Below are positions 7,848 through 34,143 of a stretch of 64,000 nucleotides of DNA, in pieces (position 1 is the first letter of the stretch; every line of letters begins with the position of its first letter). Source of the stretch: Straminergon stramineum (Eukaryota; Streptophyta; Bryopsida; Hypnales; Calliergonaceae); NCBI GenBank assembly GCA_963920665.1, contig OY987272.1:19039001-19103000 (forward strand), in the 5' to 3' direction. A model generated the notes under the pieces. That model made no database searches, had not been told where the DNA came from, and saw nothing but the letters and a program-made list of their open reading frames with translations. The position numbers were made by a program, and so were the translations under genes.

Positions 7848-7960
7848 CATGGTTGTTCCGGCGGATAGTTCGACAACTCGACGAACATGACGTCCAACAC
7901 GTCAAGTAGACCCTCTTGTCCATCTAATAGAGTCAAACTTACCTTTGACTTTTAAAAAAA
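7848..7960 (+). repeat. Left terminal region of the giant hAT element
   Basis: Begins CATGGTTGTTCCGGCGG. About 105 bp match, in inverted orientation and at roughly 85-90% identity by eye, the terminus at 34640-34743. Shared blocks include 'cgtccaacacgtcaagtaga' and 'ccctcttgtcc'. Similarity to the element's own right end (34143) is limited to about 10 bp plus scattered motifs. Confidence 0.8.
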
Positions 7961-8039
7961 ATTTTACCCTGCCCGTGAGGCCACTTGGATGCCATGTGGC
8001 AGACACGTGTCTTCCACGTAGCATCCTAAAGGGGTGCAT

Positions 8040-8540
8040 GCAGGTGTGGGCGACCTCGGGTTTGGGCGACCACGGGTGTGGGCGACCATGGGTAGGGCGA
8101 CTTCGGGTTCAGGTTGGTGGGCGACAGAGGGTGTCGAGTACGTGGCAAGTTGCGAAGCAAAGACACGAAGTGAGAACCCAAAGAGAAGTAACGCCCCACA
8201 ATTACCCGCGGTCGCCCCCAAAGACCCGCAGTCGCCTCCCAAGGCACCCGCACCCGCCCCAAAGACCTGCAGTCGCCCCCCAAAGGACTTGCACGTGCCC
8301 CTGTAACCGCAGTCGCCCTCCAAAAGACCTGCACGCGCCCTTGTACCCGAGGTCGCCCCTCCCAGGACCCGCACGCGCCCCTGGACCCGCAGTTGCCTCC
8401 TCGAACCCGAATGCGCCCTACCAGACCCGTAGTCGCTCCCCGAGATTTGTGCGCGCCCCTTGGAGACCGCGGATTCAACCGGTGGTCGCCCACCTGTACG
8501 CGCCCCATGACTAACTCTCACCCGCGCTCGCCCCACCTAT
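8040..8540 (+). repeat. GTCGCC array, left subterminal and upstream of gene A
   Basis: Positions 8040-8115 carry four cores in reverse orientation (gggcgacc-cggg), pointing to the left terminus. Positions 8200-8540 carry about fifteen forward cores, such as acccgcggtcgcccc and acccgcacgcgcccc, pointing towards gene A, whose ATG is at 8730. Many copies show CpG-to-TpG or CpA changes. It may bind the transposase or act as a promoter; the sequence does not decide. Confidence 0.75.
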
Positions 8541-8729
8541 TTATCCACTCGCCCAAGACCTTTTGGGCACCTTTCATTGAGGCTTCTTGTCTTGCATCCT
8601 TTAGTGGCTACATGCGTGAACCTTGACTATTTACTATTTATTACATTCATCCACCCTTCTTACCTTACTAGTTGTGGACCACCTAAACTCCCAAACGAGT
8701 TTTTTGAGCCTTAGACACGACAATCATTG

Positions 8730-11222
8730 ATGGCCACTAGAATTAACAATGCCAGGGCATTGCCTATCTCCGCTGCCGCACAGACCGCCGGGGCATTACG
8801 GAAGGCTGCCAAAGACAAACATCGCAAGTGTAGGGGCACTATTCATCGGAAGCGATTGCACGTGCTCAATAGTGAAGCCCACCTTGCTTTTAAGGGTTGG
8901 AATGAAGAACCAGAGCTTTGGACAATACAAACCTGTGAAGACTACATCGAGTGGTGCCATATCGGCAAGTTCTTTCCTTTATGGCGTCATCATTATAATC
9001 GTCACACCAATAAGGCCAACTTGAAGTACTGTGAGAATCCAGCATTCCTTCAAAGATGCATTGAATTGTGGCAAGTCCTCTACAAAACCGTCTTTGTAGA
9101 TAGGAATGAGGTCCCCCTCTTCCTTGCTAGAGGAGTATATGCTGAGGTCGCTCTAAACAAAGAGGTTGATTGGAGCACAATCAAGGGAAGTACGTATGTC
9201 ACTCGTCCAAAGAGTGGTTTCATCCCAAAAGGAGTTTTAGCTTTTCCTAAGGGGGGACTCGGTCCTATTCGAAGTGCATACAAAACGCAAACCCCTGCCA
9301 TTGAGGTTGACACTCAGGAGTCTGAAGAAGATGATGACTCTGATGGTACACGCGTCCATAGGGTCATACGAATCGTGGAGCAATCTGTTTGCCCCAATGA
9401 GGTTCAAAATGGAGTTGTAAAAGGACCCGCGACATCCACGGGACAACGACCAAGGCAACCATCTAGAGTACGGCGTTCAACAACACGAGTGGGACCTGCA
9501 TCGATTCCAACTATAGTTCCTAACCCATCACTGCCAACACAGCGCACAAATGACATCTTCGACTTTGGGCCCGATGAGGACACGGCTATGGAAGAAACTA
9601 ACCGTGTTCCCATTTCTCCATCAACAATGGGCTCAAGCCATGACATTATGACTTTGGCAAAAGCTCTGGACCTCCTCAAGACCAAAGATGTTGAAATTTC
9701 TTCACTACAGAATGAAATGAGGAAATTGCGATGTGAGTGTGAACAAAAAAGTACACTCATCTCTCAACAAACTACAGAACTGCAACGCCTCCGTGAGAAA
9801 GACCTTGACACTTTCACTTTGTCAGATATGGATGACGCCTTTGTTGAGCAGAACCTCCAAAATGTGGACAAGGTTGTGGGGGACCTTACCAACCATATCC
9901 TTCAGCGTTCTCCTCTTGCCAAGCGCACTAGACGCTCCCCCATCATTCCAAATACACTTCCTACTATTGTCACAAGATATACTACCAATGACACAATTGA
10001 CCTCAATGGGACCCAAGACTCTCTTTCGTTTCTTGTGGTTCCATCAATTATTCAATTGAAGAAAGACCATGGACTTCAAGAAGAAAATAAGATGCTTCGA
10101 AGAAAGTTGGCTAAGTTGACTACCACATACTACCATTGATAGGTCGCCTGCATTCTCTCCGTGGATAGATCCCAACAAGTTGCGAAGGAGCTAGAGAAAG
10201 TTTCTAGAAACTTTGTTGCAAATGCTCCTAAACGTGAGAATGGACTGACGTCATGGGCATTGTTGGAGGACATGTTTCCCAATAACATGTGCATGGTGGA
10301 ATTGCCACAAAAGGAGGTCATAGATTGGAGCAAAAATGGTTGGGACCACGAAAACCAAATGTCTAGCCACATAGAAGAGAAGAAACAAATGCTATTGTGG
10401 CCCAAGCCTGCACCTTTTGTTTTGGACCATACCAAATGCCCCATATGTCTTGAACAATTTGGCCCCGAAGGGGGTTGGGCACTAGGATCTTGTGCACATG
10501 TATACCACCCCCAATGTCTCATCACACAATGCTTGATTAGACGACATTGTGTGATTTTTTCAGTACCATTCCATGATCGCCTCTATACCATGTTCAACTT
10601 GACGACCTACATGCCTCCTTCTTGGGAACACACACGTGATACTACGGCTGACACAACCTTGTGGGGCCGAGATTTGGTTTGGAGTTGGCAAGAAGGACAA
10701 CATGATCAAGAAAAAGGACCTGCTAGCTCGCAATTGAATTGGGAAACAGACCCAGACGAAATTGTTAGAGTTGCACCAAGGCTCATGGGAAAGGGGCCAT
10801 AAAACGAAGGGAGGAGGGCATTCTTCTTCCAATGCCTTGGTGAATATTGGGACAAGACCTCCTCAACCTTCAAGTGGGGTCCTCATCCGCAATGACACTG
10901 TTGGAATTTAGAAGGAGAAAGGGTGGCTAATCAAGATGATAGTGCCTCCCTAGAAGACTTGACTAGTATGGCTTACTTGGACTCTACGTACAGACCATAT
11001 TACCAAAGTCAAGCACTTGACTACTTGTTGGAAGCACATTCTCCGCAAACAACAAGGACCCTCCAAACTCTACAGGACTCCAACGTGTTGCAATCAATTT
11101 TGAAGGTAGACGGACCAGCTTCATGAACCCGTGCAAAGCGAAAGCTAGGGGTTGGGGAAGCATCGACCTACGAAGAAGGTGAAGGAAGTGCCTCTCAAAA
11201 CAACCCAAATGTAATTGACTAG
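8730..11222 (+). pseudogene. Gene A: novel WCHI-domain protein with degraded RING-like finger
   Basis: One frame stays coherent for 830 codons from the ATG at 8730 to TAG at 11220. In-frame stops interrupt it at 10137 (TGA), 10140 (TAG), 10800 (TAA), 10893 (TGA) and 11124 (TGA). Residues about 40-150 form a domain shared with genes B and D: IHRKR, FKGW, EWCHIGKFFPLWRHH, NKANLKYC, then VYAEVALNKEVDWSTIK. The middle is acidic and has a predicted coiled coil around residues 320-360. Around codons 570-615 is a RING-like finger: CPIC, then GSCAHVYHPQC, then RRHC; the expected last cysteine appears as phenylalanine. A role in protein binding or ubiquitin ligation is only inferred from the finger. 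The first 469 codons could still be translated as a truncated protein. I do not recognise the N-terminal family. Confidence 0.7.
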
Positions 11223-12476: not shown

Positions 12477-13880
12477 TTATTTTGTGTTGAGGTAGTCCTT
12501 CAAAATGGGCTCCGGACCCATTTGTTGTAATTCTGCATCAGACTTCCCTATGCTAGCTCTATTCCACTTATACCAATTCGAAAAAACCCGACTTTCTGCC
12601 CTCAAAGCTTTCAACTCCGATACCATCAATGGTAATTTTTGCTCATGGAACTTCACCAACTTCTCAAGCGATGCTACTTCTCCAGCAACACTACCATATG
12701 TTGAGGAAGAAGCCAAAATCTCTACTTTTGGAACGTGCTGGACGGTAGCCTCGTAATATTCTTTCTTCTTCTCCATTATTTGAAGTTCTAGGCTTCGCCT
12801 TTCATTCTGTGCCTGCTGACGTTTGCGGACAAGGGTTTCGAGTTTTGATTCCCATATCAAATAATGGTCCATTTTATGCACCTTCCCACTCTTCATTTCC
12901 TTCAAATAAAAATCGCGATTTCTTTTGAAGGAATGGAAGCCCTTGTCATTCTCTTCGATGACGTTCGTTATGGCCTTCAACCGTTGCTTCAACACCTCTA
13001 CGAAAGTGGGATTCATTTCTTGCTCCTTCAAAGTTTTCAATTGCTCGTTCTTTGCACGCAATGCTAATTTTGCACTTTCTATTTTGGCAAGCAACATTGC
13101 CTCTTCATTTTCTGAATCGCTTCCTCCACCACTCCCGTCACCCTCTCGCAAAACGGGGTCCACTCTCCTAGCCACCCCATCATCCATGCCTTCTTCATCT
13201 GTATCTTGTACTATGATGGGCTCTTGAGCTGATTGTCCACTTTGGTTGACTCCCACATCCACAGCCGGCCTAGATTCTTGTATGGCAACCTCCTCCTCAT
13301 CGTTGTGGAAAGAATGTCCATCGTATTCATGGGTGTGTAGATCAGAGCTAGAAGTCTCTGACCAAACCACGCTTTCATCGCGAGCAAATGACTTTCCACG
13401 CTTCACCTTGGATAACATCTTCTTTACATCCACAGGTTCATCTGGTGGTAAAATTTTTGCAGTCTTTGGAATGATCGCAATAGGGACCTCCTTCAATGTT
13501 GACCAATCCACCTCCTTCTTCAACACATATTCAGCATACACCATTCTCACAAGAAAGAAACAGAAATTGTCGTTTCGGTAAGTTGAGTCCTCCAAATACA
13601 AGTGCTTCCACACCTCACAACATCTAAGTATGAAGCCCTCGTCCTTCGAGTATGCAAGATTTACTTTGTTTTGCTTCAAATGCTCTTTGTGCCGACACAA
13701 GGGAAATAATTTGCTGATGTGGCACCAATCCACATATTTGCAAACGGTTTTGTAACTCCAAGGCTCAGGTTCATTTCTCCAACTTTTAAATGCCTTAATC
13801 TTTGGATGGATCAAAATGGCCACACGCTTCTTGTGAATTTTACCGGACCGTTTCCGACCCTTGTCGCGAATGAGCTTCAT
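12477..13880 (-). CDS. Gene B: novel WCHI-domain coiled-coil protein, frame still open
   Basis: An intact 467-residue frame from ATG at 13880. Residues about 10-125 match the domain of genes A and D: KIHKKR, FKSW, DWCHISKLFPLCRHK, QNKVNLAYSKDEGF, RCCEVW, VYAEYVLKKEVDWSTLK. Residues 200-260 are acidic, and about 265-440 are heptad-rich and probably coiled coil. There is no zinc finger, unlike gene A. An in-frame ATG lies 36 bp upstream at 13916, separated by one TGA (13887-13889) that could come from CGA. The original start may have been there, and 13880 is the usable one now. Its upstream region carries a GTCGCC array (14268-14585) in the same orientation as the gene. Function is unknown; a structural or DNA-transaction role in the transposon is a guess. 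Confidence 0.7.
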   Translation of the reverse strand: MKLIRDKGRKRSGKIHKKRVAILIHPKIKAFKSWRNEPEPWSYKTVCKYVDWCHISKLFPLCRHKEHLKQNKVNLAYSKDEGFILRCCEVWKHLYLEDSTYRNDNFCFFLVRMVYAEYVLKKEVDWSTLKEVPIAIIPKTAKILPPDEPVDVKKMLSKVKRGKSFARDESVVWSETSSSDLHTHEYDGHSFHNDEEEVAIQESRPAVDVGVNQSGQSAQEPIIVQDTDEEGMDDGVARRVDPVLREGDGSGGGSDSENEEAMLLAKIESAKLALRAKNEQLKTLKEQEMNPTFVEVLKQRLKAITNVIEENDKGFHSFKRNRDFYLKEMKSGKVHKMDHYLIWESKLETLVRKRQQAQNERRSLELQIMEKKKEYYEATVQHVPKVEILASSSTYGSVAGEVASLEKLVKFHEQKLPLMVSELKALRAESRVFSNWYKWNRASIGKSDAELQQMGPEPILKDYLNTK

Positions 13881-14267
13881 CTCTTGTCATGTAAGGCGTT
13901 TGATTGTGGCAGGCATCAATGGTGGGGGCTCATTCTCCATAGTGCTCAATCTATACGATCAATTCTACTTGGATACTATGCCAAATATACCAAGCCTAAA
14001 ACCGCGGTTGTCCAAACTTAAATCTATTACCTCGTGGTAATTCACATTTACAAATACATCAACATGAACATTTACAATCACAATCAAGTTTCAAACAATT
14101 CGGTGTGATTTACAATCAATGGATGAAAGTGACATGAGGAGACATAGAATATCCTCCTCACAACACCCACCTCCCCTTTCAAGCCTGCAATTAGCCACTT
14201 CCAGGTGGATAAAAGACAAGGCGCAAAAGGGAAAGATGGGAGACTGCGGGTTTAGGGTCTGATTTTG

Positions 14268-14585
14268 TACCCGCAGTCGCCTCAGGGTGAGCACGGCTCT
14301 GGATGGGGCGCGTGCGGGTCCAAGGGGGGGGGGGGCGCGTGCGGGTCGAGAAGGTGACCGTGGGTCGAGGACCACCGCCAACGACCGTGGGTGATGGCAA
14401 CTGCGGGTCTGGGGGCGACTGCGGGTACGATGGGGCGACAACGGGTCTGGCGCGATCGTGGGTGAGGGGAATGCACATTGGGGGCGCATGCGGGTCTGGG
14501 CGACCACGGGTTTGGCGCAACCGCGACTGGGGGCGCGTGCGGGTCTGGGGCGACCGCGGGTCCCAAACCCCCAACCGCAAAGGCA
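14268..14585 (-). repeat. GTCGCC array upstream of gene B
   Basis: On the minus strand this reads as successive cores such as acccgcggtcgcccc, acccgcacgcgcc and acccgcatgcgcccc. The orientation is that of gene B, whose ATG lies about 390 bp away. One core at its B-proximal end (14268) runs the other way. It also lies downstream of gene C. Confidence 0.75.
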
Positions 14586-14843
14586 CATACCTTCACTGAA
14601 TAGTGAAATTAGATTGCCTTAACAATTAGATTGACTTACCCCCAAATGAACCATGCAAAGAATTCATATTCAAACCCAAATGCATGCAAGTAGGTGATGT
14701 GTCTGTACAATACTCAATATTTTGGTTCCAAACATGCACTTCACATTAAAAATAGTTTATACACTTGCATTGCTTTTCCAAAATGAAATGCTCATAAGGT
14801 GGCCAACGTTACTATTCCCGCTAGAAAACTATTACATCAAATC

Positions 14844-16433
14844 CTATGAGAGGACAGAGTCCCGAAAGACGAATTCGGGTGGTTTCATGAACCATGGTTT
14901 ACCCATGAGGAGGTCCACCACTTGCGCACATGTTGGTCTTTTGATAACATCAACATCAACTAGTTCACGTAACTTTATGGCAAAGTACCTTGATGACTCA
15001 TGATTTCTAAATAAATCCTTGTCGTATTCAACCATGTGTTCTATGTTCATGCGTTGGGTCAACTTTCCAATGGAATAAGAGTCGGACTTCATCGAATATT
15101 TGTAGGTCGCTTTCATCACATCTAAACTCGTATCTGAACCCTCTGGCCCAAACAAATAGAACAACTCTGGAGCTGCCCACCAATGGCCCATCCTCTCAGC
15201 ATCAAGTTTTTCCTGTTTTTCATATCCAAAATGCGAGGGAGCTCCTTCTTGAATACAACTTGCAATTCCCCAATCACAAATCCCAATGTTGATCTCTTCG
15301 TCCGAGAAGGGGGGATAATGCAACAATATGTTCACAGGTGACAAGTCATTGTGCAGCACCCCAACATTGTGCACGAGACTTGTCACATAAACCAAGGCCC
15401 ACGCCAACTTCGCCTTGTGTCTTCGAAAGAGGCTAATTTCTTTTTGTTGTTGGCCTGTAAGTTGCTTGACCAACTTGATTTCATGCCATTCCACATGCGG
15501 CACCACCTTCTCATTCAAATGAAGCAACTCTTTGAAATTACCACCATTCCACCACAAAGTGTATGCTTCCATTGTTTGGTCATGGACAGCTAGGAATTTA
15601 ATAATGGCCGGATGATTCAACGGGCATACCAAAGCCTCCACTGACCGTTCCACCCTCGCATCGCGTTTGTTCCTTTGCTTTGACAATTTCCCCGCAAAAT
15701 GTACATGCGCTGGGATCGTGGACATCCCTTCAATGCGTACCTTGCGCACCTTTGCATATCCTCCTTAACGGTCAAATCCAGTAAGTGGGACCACCTTGGC
15801 CTCTGAGTAGACCCACATGATACATGAACCACTATCTCTTGTAAATGCAGCCTTCAATGCATTCGTCTGCCACCCCATACCCCTAGCTTCAGACCTTGAC
15901 AATCTTTTTGCTGCAATTTGCCGCCAATCCATCTTCTCATGGAACTCCTGGGCCCTATCCGTTTCTCCAAATCCAGGCACTATAGGTCGCAACTCAAGCA
16001 TCAACTTCTTGGTGTTGAATATACCAGTTTGTAGGCAATTGCCAATCCACGTTTGCCATTGGTTGAAATACACTTCATCCACATCTGCATAGTCCGAAGA
16101 TTCCTTGCATTTCCTTGTAATAAATTCCTCCAACTCATCCTTCAAGGATTGGATGCCTGCCTCTTTATTTCTCAAGTATTTCCTCTCCAAATATTGTACA
16201 CTTTTTTCCTCATATCATTGGAGACAAGCCTCATGCGCATAGGTCGTATATCGTGCTGGAGGATAGGTAGGGTCCTTATCGTGTGCTATCTTGGACTTCT
16301 TTGTCTTGGATGGTCCGGCACCCCCAATTACCTCCTTGGTAGTTATATCTACAACAAATGCTGCAGGATTATCAAGGTCCTTGTCCCAAGCCGATATCCG
16401 ACCTGTACTACTTCCTTCCTTTGAAGTAGACAT
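14844..16433 (-). pseudogene. Gene C: protein kinase carried by the transposon, two in-frame stops
   Basis: A single frame of 529 codons from ATG at 16433, broken by TGA at 16217-16215 (codon 73) and TAA at 15767-15765 (codon 223). Both are one C-to-T step from CGA or CAA. Residues 1-215 are a unique region with charged helices. The kinase domain follows: a glycine-rich loop (GGYAKVRKV) right after the second stop, the ATP-binding lysine in FAGKLSK, and the catalytic loop HNDLSPVNILL (about 361-371, HND in place of HRD). It continues with CDWGIA as the DFG equivalent (387-389), then AAPELF, DSYSIGKL and IKRPT. All catalytic residues are present, so the ancestor was probably an active Ser/Thr-type kinase. 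I cannot assign a family. A GTCGCC array lies just upstream. Confidence 0.75.
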
Positions 16434-17855: not shown

Positions 17856-17944
17856 TTGATTTCTTATAACTCTCATGGACCATCCCCTAGACCTTGCGAA
17901 TCAAATCACCTTCCCTCCCACATACCACAAGGAATTAGCTTGAC

Positions 17945-18169: not shown

Positions 18170-19035
18170 AGGCACGCCCCCACCCGCGGTCGCCCCCCCT
18201 CTCCACCAAATTAGTCTGGAAACCACCAAAATAGAAGACCGCGCCCCCACCCGCGGTCGCCCAGGACCTGAAGTCGCCCCCAAGCCGCGGTCACCTCTCC
18301 ATCCACCAAATTGGGCTCGAAACCACCAAGACCTGAAGTCGCCCCAACCCATGGTTGCACCCCATTCCACCAAACTGCGCTCCACAACCACCAGGACCTA
18401 AAGCCGCCCCAACCCGCGGTCACCTAGGACCTAAAGTCGCCCCCCCCACCTGCGGTTGCCCCCAATCCACCAAATTGGCCTCAAAACCACCAGGACCTGA
18501 AGTCGCCCCCACCCGCGGTCGCCTAGGACCTGAACTCGCCCCCCACCCGCAGTCGCCCCCAATCCACCAAATTGGCCTCGAAACCACCAGGACCTGAAGT
18601 CGCCCCCACCCGCGGTCGCCTAGGACCTGAACTCGCCCCCCACCTGCAGTCGCCCCCAATCCACCAAATTGGCCTCGAAACCACCAGAACCTGAAGTCGC
18701 CCCCACCCGCAGTCGCCTAGGATTTGAACTCGCCCCCCACCCGCAGTCGCCCCCAATCCACCAAATTGGCCTCGAAACCACCAGGACCTGAAGTCGCCCC
18801 CAATCCACCAAATTGGCCTCGAAACCATTAGGACCTGAAGTCGCCCCCACCTGCAGTCGCCCAAGACTTGAATTCGCCCCCCCCCCCCCCGTAGTCGCCC
18901 AGGACCTAAACTCGCCCCCCACCCGCAGTCGCCCCATTCCACCGAATTGGGCTCAACAACAGCAAGCGAGAAGACCAAGCGCCCACCCGCGGTCGCCCAG
19001 GACCTGAAGTCGCCCCCCACCAGCAATCGCCTCTA
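18170..19035 (+). repeat. GTCGCC minisatellite with units of about 97 bp
   Basis: Forward cores (acccgcggtcgcc, acctgaagtcgcccc) are embedded in a longer unit. The unit includes 'ccaatccaccaaattggcct' and 'cgaaaccaccaggacctgaa', repeated at about 18472, 18560, 18657 and 18754 with shorter variants. Long frames on both strands here are products of the repeat. No gene follows directly, unlike the other arrays in the element. Confidence 0.85.
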
Positions 19036-20400
19036 TCTTAAAGTCATGCCAGTCCAGAAACCACCGTAGTAGAAGATGTGAGCCATCTCCAACACTAATG
19101 AAGTCAAACTTAATTGCGTGCTTCATTGACTACAACTGACTTGTCCTTCAATATTGGTAGCTAGTTAATACTACAAAATCAGTCTATAAATATAGAATTA
19201 TAGTAAGACTAATTAGATAAATTGAAGAGGGTTTTCCAAACCCTAAACCCTATAGAAAAACCATGGACCTTCTCCATGTATGCCACCCCAAAAGTAATGT
19301 ACTTCTATTTTTTAGGGTGGATAAAATGATAAACATATGTGATTTGCTTTTCATTATATGTCATAAAAAAGTTTGAACTCCTAAACCTTACACTTGTAAG
19401 ATATAAACCATTGAAGGTGTCATTTCCGAACTTTTTAATCTTCAATAAATTCAATATTCATTCACCCCTTCAAATGTGTTTTAAATCCCCTTGATGTATC
19501 AAGAGGAGGACCCTATTCAAATTCCTATGTTTGAAGATGGAAAATGAAATGACGAGGAGAAGGGCTTCCCCAAGTCTCCATTTTTAAAAAACACTTCCTA
19601 TGTAGATCAAAAGATTTTTTCTTCATGCATCTCATGGTGTTAGTATTTTTTTTGTACATTGTTTCCCCCCAAAGGGAATGTCTCCTCCAAATGTACTCCC
19701 TCTAAAAATTAAAATAGGAAATGGTCATGTTGAATTTTACATAAGCACGAAGAAAAAGAAATTGTGAAGGAGAAGAGCTTCCCCAAGCCTCCATTTTTAA
19801 AAACCATTTCTTATGGAGATCAAAAGATTTTTTCTTCATGCATCTCATGGTGTTAGTATTTTTTTTGTACATCGTTTCCCCCCAAAGGGAATGTCTCCTC
19901 CAAATGTACTCCCTCTAAAAATTAAAATAGGAAATGGTCATGTTGAATTTTACATGAGCATGTGGAAAAAGAAAATGTCAAGGAGAAGAGCTTTCCCAAG
20001 TCTCCATTTTTTAAAACCACTTTTGATGTAGATAAAAAGATTTCTCTTCATGCATCCCACAGTTTCAGTATTTTATTTGTACATCGTTTCCCCCCACAAG
20101 GAAAGGTCTCCTTTTAATGTACTCCCTCCAAAAATTTAAGTAGGAAATGGTTACGTTGAATTTTACATGACCACATGGATGGATGAAGAAGAAATAAAAT
20201 GTTAGGAAGAAGGGCTTTTCCAAATCTCCACTTTGTCAACCAATTCTCTTTCTTTATTACTTAATTAACTTTTGATCACTTAGTCTTGAATGCCTCATTC
20301 TTAGGATTTTCTGGAGTTAATCATCAGAAAAGGGGGGAGCGGTACTTGAAAAGTTTGAACACCTTCCCTCCAATTTGCTAGGGCGGAAACTCAAACTCAT
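19036..20400. repeat. Degenerate segment with a tandem repeat of about 175 bp
   Basis: At 19036-19500 blocks match 3861-4300, including a copy of aaccctaaaccctatag. At about 19540-20250 there are three to four copies of a unit of roughly 175-240 bp. Each holds 'gagaagggcttccccaagtc', 'tccatttttaaaaa', 'ttcttcatgcatctcatggt' and gtttccccccaaagggaatg-like blocks. Two central copies are nearly identical. No gene is seen. Confidence 0.65.
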
Positions 20401-20587: not shown

Positions 20588-20832
20588 TATTGAGTTTTGA
20601 ATGGAGAAAGGCTTTACTTAGATGGTAGAAGATACCAAGGCCCATGGATGGGCTGAACATAAGCTAAAAGCCTTTCACTAGTTATCCACAAACCATGTGG
20701 GATAACTAGCAACCTTGGGCTGCCTTTGACTACAAGCAACACCCAATACACTCTAAGTCTAACTAAGAGTCTATGACTACTCCTAGGGCTGAATGTACAC
20801 TATCTACACTAATATGTACATGATCTTCAACA
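20588..20832 (-). repeat. 3' LTR of the copia element
   Basis: 245 bp. It differs from the 5' LTR only at the T in 'ctacactaatatg' (A in the other copy). The end of the polyprotein frame runs into it. Confidence 0.92.
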
Positions 20833-23800
20833 CTCCCACTTTGAGAGTGGTCAAAGTCACGAAGGCCCATCTTCTCAATCAAGTTAAGGTGTTGGGGCTT
20901 CCCAAGAGCCTTGGTTAGCACATCAGCAACCATAGCTTGAGTAGGCACATACTTGAGCTCAATCACATCAGCCTCCACTCTTTCACGAATGAAATGGTGT
21001 TGCACATCAATGTGCTTGGTCCTTGAGTGGTGGGTGGGATTCTTGGCCAAAGCAATGGCACCTTGGTTGTCACACAAAATGCGTGTGCTCCCCTCTTGTA
21101 CAAGGCCAACATCAGCCAAGAGCTGCCTTAGCCAAATGGCCTCCTTGGTGCAATGGCTCATGGCCATGTACTCCGCCTCCGTTGTAGAAAGAGCTATGGT
21201 GGGCTGCCTCTTGGAATTCCATGAAATGGCACCCACTCCAAGCATAAACACATAGCCGGTGGTGGATCTTCGATCCCCCTCATCACCCGCCCAATCCGCA
21301 TCACAATACCCTTGCAAACTCACTTCAGCACCTCCTAGTTGCAACTCCAAGCCAAGTGTGCCTTGAAGGTACCTCATCACCCTCTTGACCACAGCCCAAT
21401 GCTGAGGGCCATACTTGGACATGTGTTGACTCACAACACTCACCGGGAAGGCCAAATCAGGCCTTGTAGCCACCATGGCATACATCAAACAACCCACCGC
21501 TGCCTTGTAAGGCACACCTTGCATTTCAGCCCTCACCTCCTCAAAATCAGCATCCGTGAGCTTGGGCAACTTCTCATGAGTGTCAAGGGGTGTACCTATG
21601 GCTTTGCACTCCTCCATGTTGAACCTCTTCAAGATCTCCTCAAGGTACTTGTGTTGGCTCATGGTGATGGTGCGGGCAGCCCTATCCCTCTTGAACTCCA
21701 CTCCAAGGCAATAGCTCAACTCTCCAAGATCCGTCATCTCATACTCCTTGTGAAGCATAGCCTTCACTTCAAGCATCTTGGTCATGTCACTTGCAAGGAG
21801 GATCAGATCATCCACATAGAGGATCACAATCACCAAATGCTCACTACTTTGCATGGTGTACAAAGAGTGATCAGCATTTCCTCTTTGGAAGCCCTTCCTT
21901 GCAAACATGCCATCAATATCTCTATACCATGCCCTCCCGGATTGCTTCAACCCGGGAAGAGCCTTCTTCAACTTGCATTTGAGATGCTCTTGCCCCTCTT
22001 GCACAAAGCCTTGGGGCTGATCCATGTAGATGACCTCCTCTAGCTTGGGGTTGAGAAAAGCCGTCTTCACGTCCATTTGATGCATCTCCAAGTCCATGGC
22101 TGCCCCTAGAGCCACAATGCACCTAATGGTGCTAAACTTAGCAACGGGGGCAAAGGTCTCATTGAAGTCCACCCCCTCCACTTGGGAGAACCCCTTGGCA
22201 ACCAGCCTTGCCTTGTACCTCACAATGTGCCCCAAAGCATCCCTCTTGGTGGAGAAAACCCACTTGCAACCCACACTTGACCTCTTGGGAGGGAGGGCAG
22301 CAAGTTCCCATGTCCCCTTGGCAATGAGGGCCTTGTACTCCTCTTGCATGGCCAACTCCCACTTGCTTGCATCTTCACAACGTAGCACCTCTCCAAGTGT
22401 GGATGGATCTCCAAGGAAAGCCACATTGGCTTGTTCTTCTTGTTGTGGAGGAAGAATGTGATTCAGCCACCAATCTCCAAGAGGCTTGCGGGTCCTTGTT
22501 GGATAACGAGGCTCCTCTTGCTCTTCCAAGGGCTGATCATGCTCTTGCACCTTGGGTGAAGTGCTTGGAGAAGGGGCTGATGGTCTCTTCACCTTGGGTG
22601 TGGCCACCTTCTTCTTGGGCTCCACCAAGACTTCATCTTCCTCCTCTTCATCTCCTTCCTCTTCCATGTCCACTCTTGGAGTTGTGCCCACCATTTGGGC
22701 TGGTCCTCCACTACTCCCACTTGGGCTCATCTCCAAGAGCTTGGGATCAGCTCCTTCCTCCTCCAAGAAGGTCACATCACGGCACTTGATGATGGCCTTG
22801 GTCTCCACACACATCAGCCTATAAGCCTTGGTTCCCTCACAATAGCCAAGGAAAAGACACTTGGTGCCCTTGGCATCCAACTTGGTCCTCTTGGCACTTG
22901 GCACCAAGGCATAGGCAATGCACCCAAAGGTGCGCATGTGGGACACATGAGGTCTGATTCCACTCCAAGCTTCTTAGGGGGTCTTGCTTGTCAAAGCTTG
23001 TGTAGGGCACCGGTTCCTTGTATACACCGCATTAGACACGGCCTCCCCCCAAAGCTCATACTTCAGCCCTTGGCCATGAATCATGGACCTAGCCATCTCC
23101 ACAATGGTGCGATTGGCACGCTCCGCTACGCCGTTTTGTTGAGGAGTGTAAGGTGCTGATGTGTGGTGCTCAATGCCATGAGCCTTCAAGTAGGCCTCAA
23201 AGGCCTTGGACACATACTCTCCTCCATTATCCAACCGCAGCACCTTCACCTTGCAATCAGATTGGGCCTCCACAAGGGCCTTCCAAGTCTCAAAACGCCC
23301 AAACACCTCACTCTTGCACTTCAGCATGTAAACCCAAATCTTGCGTGAGAAATCATCAATGAAGGTCACAAAATACCTTGCTCCTCCTATGGATGTGGTC
23401 TTCATTGGCCCACACACATCTGAATGCACAAGCTCCAAGGGCTTGCTGGCCCTTGGGGAAGGGCTGCCTTGCTTGTTTCCCCTCTATGCACCCCTTGCAC
23501 ACCAACGAACTCCAATCATGCTTGCAAGAAGAGAGGTTCAGCCCCTTCACAATGTGTTGGAGGCTCTTCATGCTCTTCACATTCAAGTGCCCAAGCCTCC
23601 TATGCCAAAGCCCCACAAGGTCTTCATGAGCTGATCCTTGGACCACACAAGCCATGGAAGTGCCATTCACCTTGGTGAAGTGAAGGTGGTACAAATTGCC
23701 CTCACGAGGGGCTGATGCAATCAAAACCCCACTAGGAGACCTCACCACACACCCCACCATGTTGAAATGCACCTTCAAACCTCCCAAAGACAATTGGCTC

Positions 23801-24855
23801 ACGGAAATCAGATTCGCATGCAACTTAGGGACATGGAGGGCCTTTTGGATCTGAATCCTCTTGGTCTTCCCCTCCACTTGCACCTCCACAAGAATCTCCC
23901 CCATGCCAAGAGCCTCCACCATGCCATTGTCTCCCAAATGAATCCTCTTCCCCACAATGGGCTGATAGGTGTGGAAGGCATCTCTATGGCTGGTCATGTG
24001 TTGAGTGGCCCCCGAATCCACAATCCAAGTGAACATGTTGGCCTTCTCCCCTCCTCCATAGGTGGCAAAGGCAAAGTCCTCCTCCTCCTCCACTTGGCAG
24101 GCTTGGTGTGCACTCCCCTTGTCTTTGGCTTGGCTGCCCTTGCAATGCTTGGCAATGTGGCCTGATTTGCCACAATTGAAGCACGTCCTTGTCTCCTTGA
24201 ACGCCTTGGTGTTGGCTCCCTTGCCATGTCTTGACACAAGGGCTGATCCCTCCCCTTGGGCCTCATTTTCCTTCCGCTTGGTCATCTCATGCATCAAGCG
24301 TGCCGTCACAAACTCCATGGTCAGCTCCTTGGTGGGTCTTGTCTCCAAGGCGGTGATGAGGTACTCATAGGAGGGTGGCAAACTCTCCAACAAGGTCATC
24401 ACCACATCTCCATCCGTGACGGGGGCCTCCAAGCAAGCTAGCTGATCCGCAAGGGCCTTGATCTTGTTGACATGATCCAAGATGTCATCCTCCTCTTGCA
24501 TCTTCATAGTGAAGAACTTCCTCCTAAGGAAGAGGATGTTGGAGAGGCTCTTGGTCTCATGGATGTTGCAAAGGGTGGTCCATGCTTGGGCTGGTCCTTT
24601 GCAATGGCGGATGTGAGCAATTTGCCGGTCCACAAGGTTGATGGCTATGAGAGCAAAGGCCTTCTTCTCCTTCCTCTCAAACGCCTTCTTGGTCTTCAAA
24701 TCAGCATCTTCACTTGGAGGCTCCTCACTCCCATCCACCACCTCCCACAAATCCTTCTCTGCAAGAATCATCTCCATCTTGAACTTCCACATCCCAAAAT
24801 TCTCCCCATTGAACTTATCAATGATCCGGACGCCCTCTCCTCCACTTGAGGCCAT
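20763..24855 (-). pseudogene. Copia gag-pol polyprotein, broken by one frameshift and one stop
   Basis: Starts at ATG 24855. Gag comes first, with a zinc knuckle CFNCGKSGHIAKHC near 24143-24184. The protease motif VDSGATQHM is near 24000. The integrase has an HHCC zinc region (HRRLGH...CKGC) and the D,D,E core (HSDVCGP, RLDNGGEY, AERANRT). Reverse transcriptase has YVDDLILLASD near 21810, and RNase H ends with motifs such as DADWAGD, STTEAEYMA and TKHIDVQHHF. A frameshift lies near 23440-23465, between the integrase zinc region and its catalytic core. A TAA at 22976-22974 interrupts the integrase-RT junction. Otherwise the frames are well kept, which fits the near-identical LTRs: the copy is very young, or was mobilised in trans by an intact relative. 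Confidence 0.9.
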
Positions 24856-25841
24856 GTTGAATCAACTCCCACTTGTTGGCAGCACCCACAAGGTCTCCAA
24901 TCTGAATTCACCCTCCAAAACCTCCCTTGGGGCGAATTGGGCTGAAATGGGACCAATCAGCCCTCACAAGCACCTTGCAACCCTAAGAACGCCACACCAC
25001 ACCTCACAAGCACAAGACTTCCTCTCCTCACCAAATCAGACCCTAATGAAGCTCACAACCACCACATGCTCGTCATGGGCTGGTGCTACTTCACAAACAC
25101 AATTCTCCTCACAAATTGGATCCTCCACACTCCAAAGATCTCAAAGCTTCCAATCAGCCCTAGATGGAAGCTCCCACTCACAATGAGCACCTCATGGACG
25201 ACAATGGCTTCAACCAGCCCTACTTGGCTCACCAAGTCACTCAAGAACCCCAATTGGGTGTCACTCTCTCTCAATGACACAAATCAGCCCTCTTGAGTTC
25301 ACAATGTCCACTATTAGGTCTCACACACTCACAAGGGCACAAATCAGCCCTCTTGGGATCACAATTTCGTCTCACTCACTCACAAGGGCACCACTCAGCC
25401 CTCAATGCATGGAAACGCCTCATGCAACCCACAAATGCTCCCAAGCCTCACCAAGGACTCTCACAAGATTGCAATTGCCAAAATGACAATCACCAATGTA
25501 CCCAAGTGCACAATCAGCCCCAATGGGCTGCCAATGTACACTTGCAAGCACAAACTCAAACAAGGAGCATGAAACTAGCCCTAATTAGGTCTGATTTCAA
25601 TCATGAGCAATCTCACACTTAAAAATGAACTCCAAACCTCACAAACCAGCCCTCAAAAGCTCAAAACAAAAGATGGAATTCAAAGACTTTTTTTTCTTTG
25701 TTTTGAAAATTTTACTCACACCATATTGTTTGTAGGTGACCAAGAGCCCAAATTCAGTATGCTCCTCCAAGCTCCAAGAACTTCTCCAAATGACTTGAAT
25801 TTCTCCCTCATGTGCAACACCAAGTGCGTGGGCCCATAACC
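24856..25841 (-). other. Copia 5' leader with repeated GGGCTGAT motif
   Basis: About 1 kb of untranslated leader between the 5' LTR and gag. The octamer aatcagcc(c) on the plus strand (sense GGGCTGATT) recurs at about 24955, 25153, 25281, 25345 and 25511, with variants at 25220, 25393 and 25648. No conserved protein is visible in this stretch. Confidence 0.55.
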
Positions 25842-26086
25842 TATTGAGTTTTGAATGGAGAAAGGCTTTACTTAGATGGTAGAAGATACCAAGGCCCATG
25901 GATGGGCTGAACATAAGCTAAAAGCCTTTCACTAGTTATCCACAAACCATGTGGGATAACTAGCAACCTTGGGCTGCCTTTGACTACAAGCAACACCCAA
26001 TACACTCTAAGTCTAACTAAGAGTCTATGACTACTCCTAGGGCTGAATGTACACTATCTACACAAATATGTACATGATCTTCAACA
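25842..26086 (-). repeat. 5' LTR of the copia element
   Basis: 245 bp, near-identical partner of 20588-20832, directly followed by the duplication ggtcg. Confidence 0.92.
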
Positions 26087-26614: not shown

Positions 26615-28163
26615 ATGACGAAGAAGAAAGGAGATCGCCATAGCAGGCAACGACGTGCCCTTCTTGACCCAGCGACTAAGGCATATCGGGGATGGCGTCA
26701 TGTAAATTCCGATTGGACCTTGACGACCTGCAAGTTATTTGTGGATTGGTGCCATATCGACAAGCTCTTCCCTTACCATCGACACATTCACCATGTGAAG
26801 CAAAACCAAGCAAATCTTCATTACTGCAAAGATGATGCATTTGTCCAGAGATGTATTGAAGTGTACCGAGCATTGTACGGAAAGCGAAAAATTCTACGGA
26901 ACGAAGTCTCAATGGGCATATGCCAAATGGTATATGCAAAGTTACAATTGGGGAAAACGGTAGATTGGATGACCTTCAAGACATCCAAGAATGTCACGCT
27001 TCCAGATACAAAAGACATTCCAAGAGCGGGTCCTTCAAATAATCCTCGGGATGGGCTAGGGCCCAAAAAGAACATTATAGAAGGAGTGGCAGATGAGGAT
27101 TATGTTTGGTCAACGTCAACTAGAGAATCGGACTCCGATGAAGAGCCATTGCCTGAACCTAGGGACAGGATGGAAGATACATCAATGGAAGAAAACTTAG
27201 CATTGGTGGTATCCGAAGAAGGCAACATGCAACGGACCACACCAACGGATGGAGAACCTTTTATGTCTGTGGAACCGATAGGGGTCCATCATCCCGAAGA
27301 TGACGAAGTGTTCCATTACGTGCAAGCTTGCTTGCAAGAAATTAATGAAGATAGGTTGGATGGGGAGAGTGAAGCTGAAGAAGAGATTCCTTTGACCTTG
27401 ATGAATTTGCCTTCCATGGAAGGATTGCGTGAAATGGAACAAGAACATCAAGGTGTACTTGGAGAAGACAATAAACGGCGGACAAAAGAATCCTATAAAG
27501 TGGAGTTGGAGATGCTTTTAAAGGATCTTGAAGAAAAAGAAAGGGAGTGTGAGATCATCGAGAAGCGAAGCGCACAAGAGATTCAGGTTGAGGATGTGGG
27601 CACCCTCAAAGAACTAATTCAAGCTGGACAAACTCGTTTGGCAGCCCAACAAAGAGAAATGGAACAATTGGAACAATTTTACCTCAAGTTCAATAAGGGA
27701 AAAGATGGAGGTTCCAATTCAAATGTCAATCCTGTTATAGATGAATGACTTTAAACAATAATGGGAAAATGTAGGATGGAAGAAAACAACCTTGCCATTG
27801 AAAAAGGAGGTGTGGAAAAGGCAAGATCGACATTGAACCGCTTGAAAGAGATGAAGGATGCAGATCCTATTGACCGGTCGTTGCAATCGGATTCATTGTC
27901 TGTGGATGTTGAAGATTTGTCATCCACTACGGAAATAGAGAAGTTGAAGATGAAGTTAGCGTCTGTGAAAAGATTGGAACAGAAGTTGGAGGAAAAGATG
28001 TCGTGGCCGAAGGTTCATGTCATTGTTCAAGAAGTGGTGGATCCAAAATAAGATGTGGAACCATGACCTGACTCTTTTGAAGAGGGAAGAGAGAGTGGCA
28101 AGAGCCCAAATAGAATTGGAAAAGAAGAAAAGGGAAGAACAAGGGGAAATGGATGGAGTATAA
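26615..28163 (+). pseudogene. Gene D: novel WCHI-domain coiled-coil protein, interrupted
   Basis: The ATG at 26615 opens a 377-residue frame. The shared domain (residues about 10-120) has RQRR, YRGW, DWCHIDKLFPYHRH, KQNQANLHYCKDDAF, RCIEVY, then VYAKLQLGKTVDWMTFK. Residues 165-290 are acidic and the rest is heptad-rich coiled coil. The frame stops at TGA 27746-27748 and TAA 27752-27754, then stays open to TAA at 28049. After a one-base shift, a further charged helix runs to TAA at 28161. The in-frame stops could come from CGA or CAA. It is closest in plan to gene B: domain, acidic stretch, coiled coil, no finger. Function is unknown. Confidence 0.65.
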
Positions 28164-29035: not shown

Positions 29036-29039
29036 AGCG

Positions 29040-29330
29040 TAAGCGCAGTCGCCCTTCAAGTACCTGAAGTCGCCTCTTGAGACCCGCGGTCGCCCCCTTC
29101 TACCCGTAGTCGCCTCCCCTGGACCCGCAGTCGCACCCCCTGGACCCACAGTCGCCCCCCCAAGACCCGCACTCGCCCCCCTTACCCGCAGTCGCCTCTT
29201 TTTCGACCCGAAGTTGCCCCCCTTGGACCCGCAGTCGCCCTTTGATCTGCATGCGCGTTCCTAGTGCAAACCGTCGACCCGCAGTCACCTACGGGGCGAG
29301 TGCGCTTGTTACGATGTCGCCCATTTCCTG
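29040..29330 (+). repeat. GTCGCC array upstream of gene E
   Basis: About ten forward cores, for example agacccgcggtcgccccc, tacccgtagtcgcctcc and gacccgcagtcgcaccc. The array ends about 280 bp before the transposase ATG and has the same orientation as the gene. Confidence 0.8.
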
Positions 29331-29611
29331 CACCCATTCTGGCTCTCAGGGGGCGACTTGCGGTGCTAGCAAGACGGCAATATAAAGCTGAAGGCCCGGA
29401 CTGTGGTTTTCACCTTGCTTCAGGGATGAACTCTTGCCTTGAATCTTCGAAAGAGGCTTCTTGCAGATGTTTGGTTCTTTGGAGGGCAACGACTTGGTTT
29501 GTGTGGTTTAAAAGACCGTTCAAAGCAAGTGGCTTTGCCATTCTTTTTTCTAAATGAAGGCTTTGATTCATATGATAATATTGTTTGAAGAACTCATAGG
29601 CGAGGAACAAT

Positions 29612-32600
29612 ATGGCTAGTCGGGGTGAAGGGAGGAGGACTACCATTAACGATACAAGGAGAGCCACGAAGGAGTGGGACCCTTGGTTGGTTGTAGACAT
29701 TGACCGTCAATTTGCGGGAAACACACAAACATGTGTTTTCTGTGGGTGGACCTCCGTATTTGTACGAAAGCGGGCATTTTGTCACTTTGGATTTGGCGGC
29801 AGGACTGCATTGGAGCGATGTAAGAAAATCCCATGGGCAGTATTGCAAAAGTTTAGGACTTGTGGTGGGGTTGTTCCGAAGGAAATGAGCTTTGAACAAA
29901 TGCATGAGGAGGTTCCAGAATTTGATGTTGTAGATGAGACTATGGTTGAGCCTATGTTGGAGGGGGATAGGGAGAGGTCAGAGGAGCCTAGTGCTACGAA
30001 TGAACCAATGCTCCCTATTACAGATTCAGTAGATTCCACTCCTCAAACAATTTTGAGAAGGAGGAATAACCCTTCCATTTCTAGGCAAACTAGCATGGAT
30101 GAGGCATTACAAAGTAGCACGAGAGCAAAGTTAGATACCATGTGGGCTTCCTTTTTTTATGAGGCTAGCATTGCGTTCAATGTTGCGCGCCATCCTGCCT
30201 TTGTGAAAGTAGTGAAAGAGACAGCAGCATCAAGACTACGATACCAACCGCCCTCATACAATGCTTTGCGTACAAGAATGATAGAGCCAAAGAAAGAAAG
30301 TGTTTCTAAAATGGTCACTGAGCGGACAAAGCACTCTATCGAAGTTTATGGAGCGACTATCTGTTTGGATGGTTGGTCTGATACTAATAGCCGTCTATTA
30401 CTAAATTTAATGCTCGTGTGTCCTGCGGGGGATGTGTTTCTTGGATCGGTGGACACCACGGGGGAGAAGAAGGACATTGCGTACACAACCAATATGATGG
30501 CGCAATACATAGAAGAGGTTGGCCCCAAAAACATTGTCCAACTATGTACGGACAATGCCGCTGTCATGACGGGGACTTTGAAGGGGTTCTAAGAGAAATA
30601 TCCTCACATGTATACCCAAGGATGTGCAACACACATTTTGGACTTGCTTTTGGAAGACTGGGCAAAGGATGTCAACGTGACGAGAATAGTACGACGTTGT
30701 ACGCAGATAGTAAAGTACATCAAGAGGTACCATTCCACATTGGCTCTCTTCCAAAAGTACTCCCTGGACAAGGCATTGCGAATGCCTTCTAAAACACGCT
30801 TTGCAGTGAACTTCCTCATTATATCACGTGTGGTGGAGTGCAAGTCAGCATTGATGCGAGTGATAATGGATGAGACATATGTGCAATTTGAGGCTAGTTT
30901 GGAACGTCGCCAAAATGGAGATATATTGAGTGCACGAGCCCGTATAGCGTGGAATGACATTCATGCGGAATCTTTTTGGGTGGAGTGTAAGAATTTTTTG
31001 CACATGGTGGAGCCCGTCATTATTGCTCTCCGAGTGTTTGATGGGAAAGCCCCGGCAATGCCTAAGGCTTGGTTGGTTATGAAGACTCTTCAAGAGCACG
31101 TGTGGAGCTTGAGAAACGAACCTTTTTTTCTGAATGATGAAACTGCAACGAAGTTTGAGACGCAATTCGAGGCTCGTTGGAAATTGATGCTCACAGACCT
31201 ACACTATGCAGGGGCACTCTTAAATCCTTTCTTGATTGAAGTAGGAACCCTTCGTAACGACGGTGTGGCCAAAAGAGCCTTAAATCGGGTGCTTCGAAAA
31301 ATGAGCGAGTCATTGGGATTATCATACATGGAGGCATTGCAGGAGCTCACGCAGTTCGAAGAAAAGACAGGTCCTTTTGACCCCTTAGAAGAGGCTCCTG
31401 ATATTACACAATGTAAACTAATGCCTCATCAATGGTGGAATCTTGTGGGTGCTAATGTTCTCCCAAAAATTGCAATGAGAGTTCTATCTTTGACGTGCTC
31501 AGCATCATCATGTGAAAGGAATTGGAGCATGTATTTGTTTGTGCACAATAAAGTGTGAAATCGCCTAACCACATCCAAGGCGGAAGCATTGGTGTATATC
31601 TACACCAACAGTAAACTTGAACGTGAGAAACGTGGACGCAATCCTGCAATGTTCTACAAAAAGTACCTTGTGGATGGAAATACCTCGGAAGAGAATGAGG
31701 AGCCATTAGGTACAGGATCATCAGGGGATGGCGACCCAGTCAGAAGGGCTCGAGCTAATGAGAACATTAGGTTGGCAGAAGAGCGTCTACGTGGAAATAT
31801 TTGGACAGGACTGATTCGTAGAGAAAAGAGTCCTCTACGGAGACACAACTATGGAAATACATTTACAGCTGAGAATAATACGTACTACTCTGAGGAGGAG
31901 GAGATTCAACGTGCACCGCAAAGGCCCCCGCAACCCTACGTCTCTGCTAGGGATAGGAATGTACCTCCTCCAATAAATTCATCACCAACTCGGGCAAGTA
32001 GTCCCGACAACCCCAATGAAGGCATACATAGTCCAATGCCCATAAGAGCTGAGGAAGCAAGATCTCCAAATGTTGTAGATCAGGGTTCTACAAGGGTAAT
32101 GAACCTATGAAGTGCCGCTCGAGTTGCTGAGGTAAATGAAAGGCAAGAGGAGGCAACACCGCCAACACACGTCGAAGATGTTGTGCATACAAGCGTTCCA
32201 CTTTCTCCATTACGGAGCCCCTTAAGAACAGAAAATGTGGAATATGATTCAGACTTGCCCTTGCAAGCTGTCATGAACCGGAATCGTACGGTGCCCTTAA
32301 GTGGAGGAGGAAATGCAAACAATGCTAGGGTGACTAGGTCTATACCAACCCGTGCGACTAGGCCACCCTTGCATAATAGTCCTTTTAGGACAGTTGATAA
32401 TGAAGGCCATGCTTCAGCTCCGCAACCCACTCAACCCTCCTCTATTTCTGGCCCAGGAGAATCATCCTTGCTCGTGCGTGAAGGCACAAGAGGACAGAAA
32501 AAGCGATTGAGGAAGACGCAGGAGAGGCTACAAAGAAATCCCAAACGACAGAACCATGTTGTCCAAAGATTCATCATGGGTGAAGCCAATTCCAATCGAA

Positions 32601-32890
32601 ACATCGAGCAATCCAGTAGAGGCGGACGACATCCTGCATCCAACCTTGATGGAACAAGAGATGCATTGAGGTTGACTAAACGATTGGTGCAAACTAGCGG
32701 CGATGGCGTCGTGGATACTGAAGTGCGGAACGTGAACTCAGAGGTAGAACATGAAGTGCAAAATGAACGAGTACGAAGGGAGGATGACGAGAATGATAAC
32801 CGTGATGATAATGATAGGGGGGAGGAGTCGGATGATGATTTTGACCCTGACACTAATGAGGTGCCTAGTGATTACACATTTTCACCGTAA
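29612..32890 (+). pseudogene. Gene E: hAT transposase with a long C-terminal tail, three in-frame stops
   Basis: One frame of 1092 codons from ATG 29612 to TAA 32888, interrupted by TAA 30590, TGA 31556 and TGA 32108. Each stop is one C-to-T step from CAA or CGA. Residues 41-70 form a BED-type zinc finger (CVFC, then H58 and C70). Residues about 215-345 match DUF659, with the catalytic-type aspartates in CLDGWSD (D253) and CTDNAA (D314). The hAT C-terminal region has SSCERNWSMY (about 636-645) and, across the second stop, the usual NRL...A..LVYIY segment. About 380 further residues of charged, proline- and acid-rich sequence follow, which hAT transposases usually lack. The protein would cut and rejoin the ends at 7848 and 34143 in the nucleus. 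This copy cannot make the full protein without readthrough. Confidence 0.88.
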
Positions 32891-33770
32891 CTTAATAAAT
32901 ATAGATTTAGAGGTAGTAAAGTGGTAATGTAATGCTTTTGCATAATTTTGGTGTGTTGAAGTTTTCTAGCTTAAGTTCATAGGCAAATAGCCTATAGATG
33001 AGTTTTGTGTAGTATCTACTTTAGTATGAAAGCATGATAGTGTTAGAATTACAAAGTTTTGTTCAATGTCTTTAGTGTGGACTTCTACAGGTATAGACGT
33101 GGAGATCTTAACAAAGTTCATGGAAGTACAATTGAAGTAGAAGTTCATTTATAAGATTGGGTCACTACTCTATTAGTGTGTACAACTTATAAATACAGTA
33201 ATACTAATTATCCTTACTTTTTTCTTGTTTTTGTATCTATTTTTGGTGTAATTATTATATCCAATTGCGATATTGGCTTCTACACTTCAATAGGAGTAGA
33301 AAATTTGAATTAGAAATTCCCAACCATATGTAATAAAAACATATAGAACTCGGAGGCTCCTATGAATGAGTGAATGACCACAGAATGTGAAATACTTAAT
33401 TTAACGCTTAGGAGAATGCAATGGCACATGGAAACTGAAGGATCCTAAATCGTGAGCAAGATTGAAATGGTTGTTATATCCATGTTTGCAATTGCAACGG
33501 CACACGAGGTTGCTCTTAACCTTTAACGGATGGACTAGTGAGTATGAAAATCATCTCCAATGGAACTCTGTGATGTGATGTACTTGCCTTTCCCCTCACA
33601 AAAATACTCATTTCCGGTATGAGGACTCAGTAAGATCTCTTTTTTGGGAATTGAGACCCAATTTTCAAAGATGGACAATTGCATTTATGTCGTATATTAG
33701 AAGTTTTTATCATCCACGGAACAAAAGAAATTCCTTGCGTATGGGATAAAGCCAAGATCGCCCTTTTCCT
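32891..33770. other. No gene seen
   Basis: Sequence 3' of gene E inside the giant element. AT-rich, without a coherent frame or array. Confidence 0.5.
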
Positions 33771-33774
33771 TACA

Positions 33775-33945
33775 TTCGCGGTCGCCTTTACACCCTCAGT
33801 CACCCTGAGTTGGACCCGTAGTCGCCCTCATTTTGGGACCCGCGGTTGCCCTGGATTTTGGACCCACAGTCGCCCTCATTCTGGTACCCGCGGTTGCCCC
33901 ACCTTACCCGCACGCGCCCCACCCATAGTTGCCTATGGTGACGTG
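33775..33945 (+). repeat. GTCGCC array, right subterminal
   Basis: About nine forward cores: attcgcggtcgcc, acccgtagtcgccc, acccgcggttgccc and acccgcacgcgcccc. They point to the right terminus, mirroring the outward-pointing cores at 8040-8115 on the left. Outward-pointing subterminal motifs are where hAT transposases often bind. Confidence 0.7.
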
Positions 33946-34039
33946 GTCAAAGCTTTCCACGTCACTGTTGACAACCCGCCATGTAAGATAAAAATTTTGG
34001 TTGCCCTGCCCGAAAACCCTAAACCCTAATTTCGCGCTC

Positions 34040-34143
34040 GTCAAATTTGTCTCGTATATGCGACACTCGTCTTATATGACATGCGACATCAGACGAACAA
34101 CTCAACACCCAAACCCGACAACACGTTCGACAAAACAACCCTG
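34040..34143 (-). repeat. Right terminal region of the giant hAT element
   Basis: Ends ...cgacaaaacaaccctg. Read inwards this is CAGGGTTGTTTTGTCG, a typical hAT CAGGG start. The last 10 bp pair with the left end with one mismatch. The subterminal stretch is rich in cgac and gacgaac motifs also seen at the left end. Confidence 0.8.

Follow-up and report, generated by a model that had tools for sequence, protein, structure and literature searches.

Within a stretch of 64,000 nucleotides from the moss Straminergon stramineum (contig OY987272.1, positions 19,039,001 to 19,103,000 of the forward strand; hereafter referred to as the window), we identified at positions 7848 to 34143 a copy of a hAT transposon family whose unit of about 21 kb comprises five genes. 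The explanation that best accounts for the data as a whole, and to which we assign a probability of roughly 0.85, is a family of autonomous-type DNA transposons built as a five-gene unit, in which the genes accompanying the transposase would have control roles. The complete unit was inserted en bloc at many places in the genome, each time generating an 8-bp duplication, and shorter relatives that have lost internal sequence but retain the ends were inserted likewise.

The element is flanked by gtctaatt, an exact 8-bp target-site duplication (TSD), at positions 7840 to 7847 and 34144 to 34151; both copies were read from the flanking bases, and the left one is additionally documented by paralogous empty sites. 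The left terminus (7848 to 7882, plus strand) starts with CATGGTTGTT and the right terminus (34109 to 34143, minus strand) carries the inverted CAGGGTTGTT. The two form imperfect terminal inverted repeats of approximately 10 bp, identical at nine of ten bases, and thus agree, like the 8-bp duplication, with what defines a hAT element. The original prediction, made from the letters of the DNA, had named this duplication and these termini as well as a hAT transposase frame and four further genes including a kinase, all of which are borne out by the results given here. The size of 26 kb stated there holds for the span of the window copy, which measures 26.3 kb because a Ty1-copia retrotransposon of 5.5 kb is nested inside; once this insertion is removed, the hAT unit itself amounts to about 21 kb. 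The retrotransposon (20588 to 26086, minus strand) is not part of the hAT unit proper; its long terminal repeats (20588-20832 and 25842-26086) are 99.6% identical, and GGTCG is present at both sides, as read from the printed bases. From left to right, the unit comprises g1 in rightward orientation, g2 and the kinase gene in leftward orientation, a region of tandem repeats, and g4 and the transposase gene, both again rightward.

Genome-wide searches were performed on a version of assembly GCA_963920665.1 with 326,016,511 bases in 59 contigs, from which small scaffolds are probably absent, given that the genome note (PMC11992514) counts 367 scaffolds and 326.30 Mb; copy numbers were obtained with 35-base probes allowing up to three mismatches, by which more diverged copies are missed. 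The left-end pattern was found at 266 places and the right-end pattern at 398, as compared with none for the reversed control patterns; the excess of right ends may reflect further non-autonomous classes. When the terminal 200 bases were used, the best 40 of 740 candidates for the left end and the best 40 of 800 for the right end were full-length and 96-100% identical. Probes for the individual genes, one for each, detected 211 (g1), 200 (g2), 181 (kinase), 190 (g4) and 188 (transposase) places, with no match for any of the controls. Hence, the family is present in about 190 copies.

From 108 left and 113 right positions, 44 end pairs in the right order and orientation could be formed. Thirty of them span 15.8-26.5 kb, 17 of these being 20-22 kb in length; 12 span 3.2-5.2 kb, and single pairs measure 12.2 kb and 41 kb, the latter probably not representing one element. 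Besides the window copy, six long copies (A to F) of 20,311 to 21,749 bases were retrieved as contiguous stretches. They are collinear with the window copy and approximately 94-97% identical to it except in the repeat arrays, where the identity ranges from 77 to 97%. All five genes are present over their whole length in five of the six; in the sixth, copy F, the kinase gene is partial and adjoins a run of 200 N, a run that likewise occurs in copy D. Further long copies with the same gene set, as looked for in the original prediction, are thus present. The short elements of 3-5 kb constitute a non-autonomous class sharing the ends of the giant element (e.g., G000:C1:32096087-32099250), and a left-end variant ...CAACACGAC occurs in 11 of the 12 listed short pairs. 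In a short copy of 3.4 kb, the leftmost 550 bases or so (89% identity) and a non-coding middle part (85%) are retained.

The linkage of the genes was assessed with the 83 exact transposase-probe matches on C1 to C10, counting exact partners only, so that mismatched partners are omitted. With a limit of 40 kb, 53 of the 83 were preceded by an exact g4 match on the same strand, at a distance of 3.7-5.0 kb in 52 cases and of 20.9 kb in one, and for 49 an exact kinase match was located upstream on the opposite strand; at least one of the two partners accompanied 70 of the 83. Partners in the wrong orientation numbered one for g4 and five for the kinase, and random positions yielded a mean of 0.5 and a maximum of four kinase partners in 200 trials. 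Moreover, 23 of 56 exact left ends (57 minus the known short copy) were followed by one of the 83 scored kinase matches inside the element, 21 of them at 6.7-7.3 kb.

Target-site duplications were assessed by comparing the eight outside bases of 18 end pairs, namely seven fetched copies, the window copy and ten further pairs including four short elements. The match was perfect in 12 pairs, and 17 of the 18 agreed at seven or eight positions, in contrast to none of 306 cross-pairs reaching seven. Different 8-bp duplications at other copies, as foreseen in the original prediction, are thus present; the four short pairs tested likewise show duplications at seven to eight of eight bases. In addition, the joined flanks of six insertions (A, C, D, F, I and the window copy) were searched against the genome, and the best 40 of 353 candidates were scored. 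Uninterrupted flank junctions of 96-99% identity were found elsewhere 18 times for copy A, 19 times for copy I and three times for the window copy (97-98%, at C9:14002073-14002233, C6:330668-330828 and C2:41466817-41466975). These matches are paralogous empty sites and as such demonstrate insertion only. Empty sites, which the original prediction had called for in relatives, were obtained in paralogous repeats of S. stramineum for half of the insertions examined, including that of the window.

The same observations bear on the question whether the unit could be an assembly artefact, or whether hAT ends of separate origin merely happen to flank ordinary genes. The assembly was built from PacBio HiFi reads at approximately 83-fold coverage and Hi-C data (main text of PMC11992514). 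The totals given in that text correspond to a mean read length of about 9.8 kb, and for this reason single reads mostly do not span 21 kb, which is what speaks for an artefact. However, each gene recurs about 190 times in a fixed order, and errors at many independent places would be required to produce this together with the duplications and the empty sites; the large number of collinear copies, like the empty sites, speaks against a misjoin, and we give this explanation practically no credence.

The transposase gene (29612 to 32887, plus strand) is open over 1092 codons in copy E and is interrupted by three stops in the window copy. The protein comprises DUF659, a hAT dimerisation domain and a tail of approximately 400 amino acids. 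In copy E, PF04937 (DUF659) matched with an E-value of 1.6e-35 and PF05699 (hAT dimerisation) with 4.9e-7 (29.9 bits; cut-off 21.4), whereas the broken frame of the window copy scored 18.5 bits with PF05699, below the cut-off. Apart from DUF659 and the hAT dimerisation models, no Pfam family matched at E ≤ 0.1, including the transposases of MULE elements. The motifs SDGWSD (252), LCTDNA (311), GCAAH (337) and SSCERNW (632), assigned by position, are presumably located where the DDE and CxxH motifs of hAT transposases would fall. In 5.8 billion proteins, 41 relatives with 26-58% identity were found. One of these, P0028, is filed as a Bacilli bacterium protein in a public metagenome-assembled genome (MAG); it is probably eukaryotic DNA contaminating that MAG.

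The kinase gene (14847 to 16433, minus strand) encodes 529 amino acids, open in copies A and D and with two stops in the window copy, and its product matches the Pfam family Pkinase. K267, E284, D381 and D405 are invariant in 14 aligned kinases, as is expected for the protein kinase superfamily; by their position we take them to be the catalytic lysine, the glutamate, the aspartate of the HxD motif and the aspartate at the DFG position. The predicted structure contains a conserved helical N-terminal part (approximately residues 70-190; block pLDDT mostly 74-93), followed by a kinase fold at lower confidence. Among solved structures, sequence comparison gave weak matches to MAP2 kinase and eIF2-alpha kinase 1 (E ~1.5e-4), and prokaryote genomes yielded only four weak, short matches (33-38% identity over 48-67 residues), three of them in MAGs with the label Bacteroidales and one in a MAG with the label Bacteroidia.

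The three remaining genes are paralogs. g1 (8730 to 11219, plus strand) encodes 830 amino acids, open in copies B and E and with five stops in the window copy; g2 (12480 to 13940, minus strand) encodes 487 amino acids, open in copy F and with one stop in the window copy; and g4 (26615 to 28160, plus strand) encodes 519 amino acids, open in copies A, C and E and with two stops and an 11-bp deletion in the window copy. Their products have an N-terminal domain of approximately 140 residues in common (33-45% identity, E ~1e-34), and g2 and g4 can be matched over 271 residues. Their first 60 residues contain 12-16 basic and 3-6 acidic ones. In g1 the domain is combined with a RING finger at approximately residues 569-611, which scored 28.3 bits with zf-RING_11 in the window copy and 25.1 bits in copy E, above and below the cut-off of 27, respectively. 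In g2 it is followed by long predicted helices indicative of a coiled coil, which appear in the second half of the model at mixed confidence; the model returned no Foldseek match at E ≤ 0.001. Since the common domain has no Pfam match above the cut-off and the model of g2 is poor (mean pLDDT 56), DNA binding by the three proteins would be a guess.

Kinases and RING proteins are often carried by large DNA viruses, and together with the large size of the element they would fit a composite virus-like element, in the manner of Teratorn, that uses a hAT transposase to integrate. Nevertheless, no capsid, polymerase or packaging family was found among the five genes by Pfam, and the seven stretches of viral contigs that match two peptide patterns encode no relative of the kinase. 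We regard a viral nature of the unit as very improbable.

A more serious question is whether a short hAT element recently captured host genes as passive cargo and was amplified once, in which case the kinase and the other genes would be of no use to the transposon. The close similarity of the copies, with a private divergence of 0.64-1.39% per copy, and a within-genome pN/pS of g1 that is not strongly below 1 are compatible with such an event. The relatives of the genes tell a different story. Among the 5.8 billion proteins, 13 relatives of the kinase (39-63% identity) and 11 of g2 (43-97% identity) were found, several of which are full-length open frames, and the residues at the catalytic positions are kept among the kinases. 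Within the genome, the best 83 of 785 kinase candidates all fall between 47 and 51% identity when compared with a single distant query, which would be expected of one family, although a diverged host copy would escape this comparison; 25 of the 83 are free of stops. Furthermore, the longest contigs containing P0003 (kinase) and P0015 (g2) both measure 6460 bases, a hint at linkage of the two genes in a relative, albeit one weakened by the different sources listed for the two. The relatives of kinase, g2 and transposase reside mostly on short contigs and would be metagenomic and of plant origin. Since these relatives are open frames, the genes appear to have stayed open for a long time, which points to the kinase and g2 being long-standing parts of the element rather than recently captured host genes. 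We consider a recent capture unlikely, and the original prediction of a giant gene-carrying hAT lineage is supported by the long copies, the duplications and the empty sites, provided that gene-carrying is not equated with such a capture.

Of 655 private changes, 511 are C>T or G>A. A predominance of C>T changes is typical of methylated, silenced repeats. The expansion of the family dates to the fairly recent past, and its copies are now in decay. The window copy is itself decayed, each of its five genes containing at least one in-frame stop.

Approximately half of the unit is non-coding and rich in tandem repeats. Arrays rich in GTCGCC or GGCGAC are located next to the left end (8043 to 8397), and a further array with the GTCGCC motif is located next to the right end (33812 to 33899). 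Between the genes, 97-bp and smaller units with GTCGCC motifs (18261 to 18934) vary between copies; in addition, a 213-bp unit is present in three tandem copies (19538 to 20179), and an array of GACCCGCAGTCGCCCC-like units lies directly upstream of the transposase gene (29061 to 29240). In all seven long copies, 57-87 GTCGCC sites (both strands, mostly in one orientation) were counted in approximately 10-11 kb of non-coding DNA, in contrast to 1.6-3.5 expected, the motif having been chosen by eye from the arrays before counting; the approximately 10 kb of coding DNA per copy contain three to four. For a motif selected in this manner, the element thus shares with VANDAL elements the tandem repetition of a short sequence outside the genes.

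These features suggest how the element may operate. The transposase would recognize the ends and the subterminal arrays and move the unit by the DNA-only route of hAT elements, acting on element ends in cis and in trans. More doubtfully, g1, g2 and g4 may bind with their basic N-termini to the GTCGCC arrays of the non-coding half and might serve as assembly or anti-silencing factors, and the kinase and the RING protein could modify the transposase or host silencing factors such that expression of the element becomes possible. By analogy, our best guess for the roles of the extra genes is a control system similar to that of VANC. A more far-reaching version of this idea, which is possible but which we hold only tentatively, is an old moss lineage of giant hAT elements with a complete control apparatus, consisting of a dedicated kinase and three duplicated array-binding proteins, one of which would be a RING ubiquitin ligase. 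Such an apparatus would target both host silencing and the motif arrays of the element itself, and its origin would be separate from that of the VANC system in Arabidopsis MULEs.

Several observations weigh against the explanation favored here. Among the 18 end pairs copy B is the single exception that is devoid of a duplication, and for the insertions C, D and F no empty site was present among the best 40 of the 353 candidates. None of the seven long copies contains a complete open set of five genes (the kinase of copy F being too incomplete to judge), and the present copies are consequently no more than candidates for autonomy. Within the genome, pN/pS amounts to 0.54-1.07 for private changes and to 0.14-0.82 for shared changes (g1, 0.82), the latter being based on few sites; both sets of values are noisy, and the case for function therefore rests on the distant relatives with open frames. 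The whole gene set in one element was seen directly in the genome of S. stramineum only. The lack of a Pfam match for the domain common to g1, g2 and g4, the poor model of g2 and the selection of the GTCGCC motif by eye belong here as well.

Plant hAT elements are usually a few kb in length and contain one gene. Ac/Ds and Tam3, which belong to this group, are named in a table of PMC9033089. The moss element resembles plant hAT elements in the 8-bp TSD, the short terminal inverted repeats, the hAT dimerisation domain and the existence of non-autonomous derivatives with the same ends, but differs in its size of approximately 21 kb, its five genes and its non-coding portion of approximately 10 kb, which is rich in repeats. 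VANDAL MULEs belong to a superfamily different from hAT. In Arabidopsis, VANC targets non-coding DNA in which a short motif is arrayed with a repeat number that varies between copies, and binding of VANC to the arrays was demonstrated (PMC5735166, excerpt). VANDAL elements (VANA/VANB/VANC) and the moss element are both multi-gene plant DNA transposons with the same array layout. The moss element, however, encodes other proteins and a kinase, and array binding, demonstrated for VANC, is proposed here. En/Spm (TnpA/TnpD), MuDR (mudrA/mudrB) and Harbinger (two open reading frames) combine a transposase with accessory DNA-binding proteins; in contrast to the moss element they have about two genes and no kinase and belong to other superfamilies.

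ToxhAT is a hAT-like element. In fungal wheat pathogens it is a mobile element of approximately 14 kb carrying another gene (PMC12506042, PMC11857905; excerpts). It is fungal and known for a single effector, whereas in the moss element five genes recur in approximately 190 copies, with old relatives for at least two of the genes other than the transposase. Starships and Teratorn share with the moss element the character of large gene-carrying DNA elements; they differ from it in being mobilized by a tyrosine recombinase and in being a piggyBac-herpesvirus fusion, respectively, in reaching up to hundreds of kb and in residing in other hosts. A giant plant hAT element with several genes was not found in the titles and abstract openings searched, a scope that excludes most subscription papers and preprints available only on bioRxiv, and the words hAT, transpos and repeat are absent from the main text of the S. 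stramineum genome note (PMC11992514). Taken together, the moss element is a hAT transposon by the defining features tested, of a size and gene content that we did not find described.

The remainder of the window contains further features. A CACTA-type transposase is encoded in two frames at 60448-62993 (plus strand; Transposase_21, 5.9e-70; DUF4218, 6e-37). To the right of the hAT element, a RING-H2 frame at 38279-38764 (minus strand; zf-RING_2, 2.4e-14) adjoins a frame at 39029-39571 (minus strand) that has no Pfam match and may be an upstream exon; the locus 38279-39571 looks like an ordinary host gene. Approximately 200 N at about 43997-44197, appearing as X in the list of frames, represent an assembly gap or a masked stretch. 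To the left, outside the element, a repetitive block at 2752-3860 has a GC content of 0.44, in contrast to approximately 0.25-0.29 in its surroundings, and its frames repeat a CACAPWEGK-like peptide.

The element widens the range of hAT transposons to a unit of 21 kb with five genes in about 190 copies; if each probe place corresponds to a whole copy, the family would amount to approximately 4 Mb or 1.2% of the genome. A transposon-borne kinase was likewise not found described in the titles and abstract openings searched. In mosses, kinases and RING proteins of this kind may be mistaken for families of host genes by gene prediction, and the moss element would be a second candidate in plants for element-encoded control via arrays of a non-coding motif.

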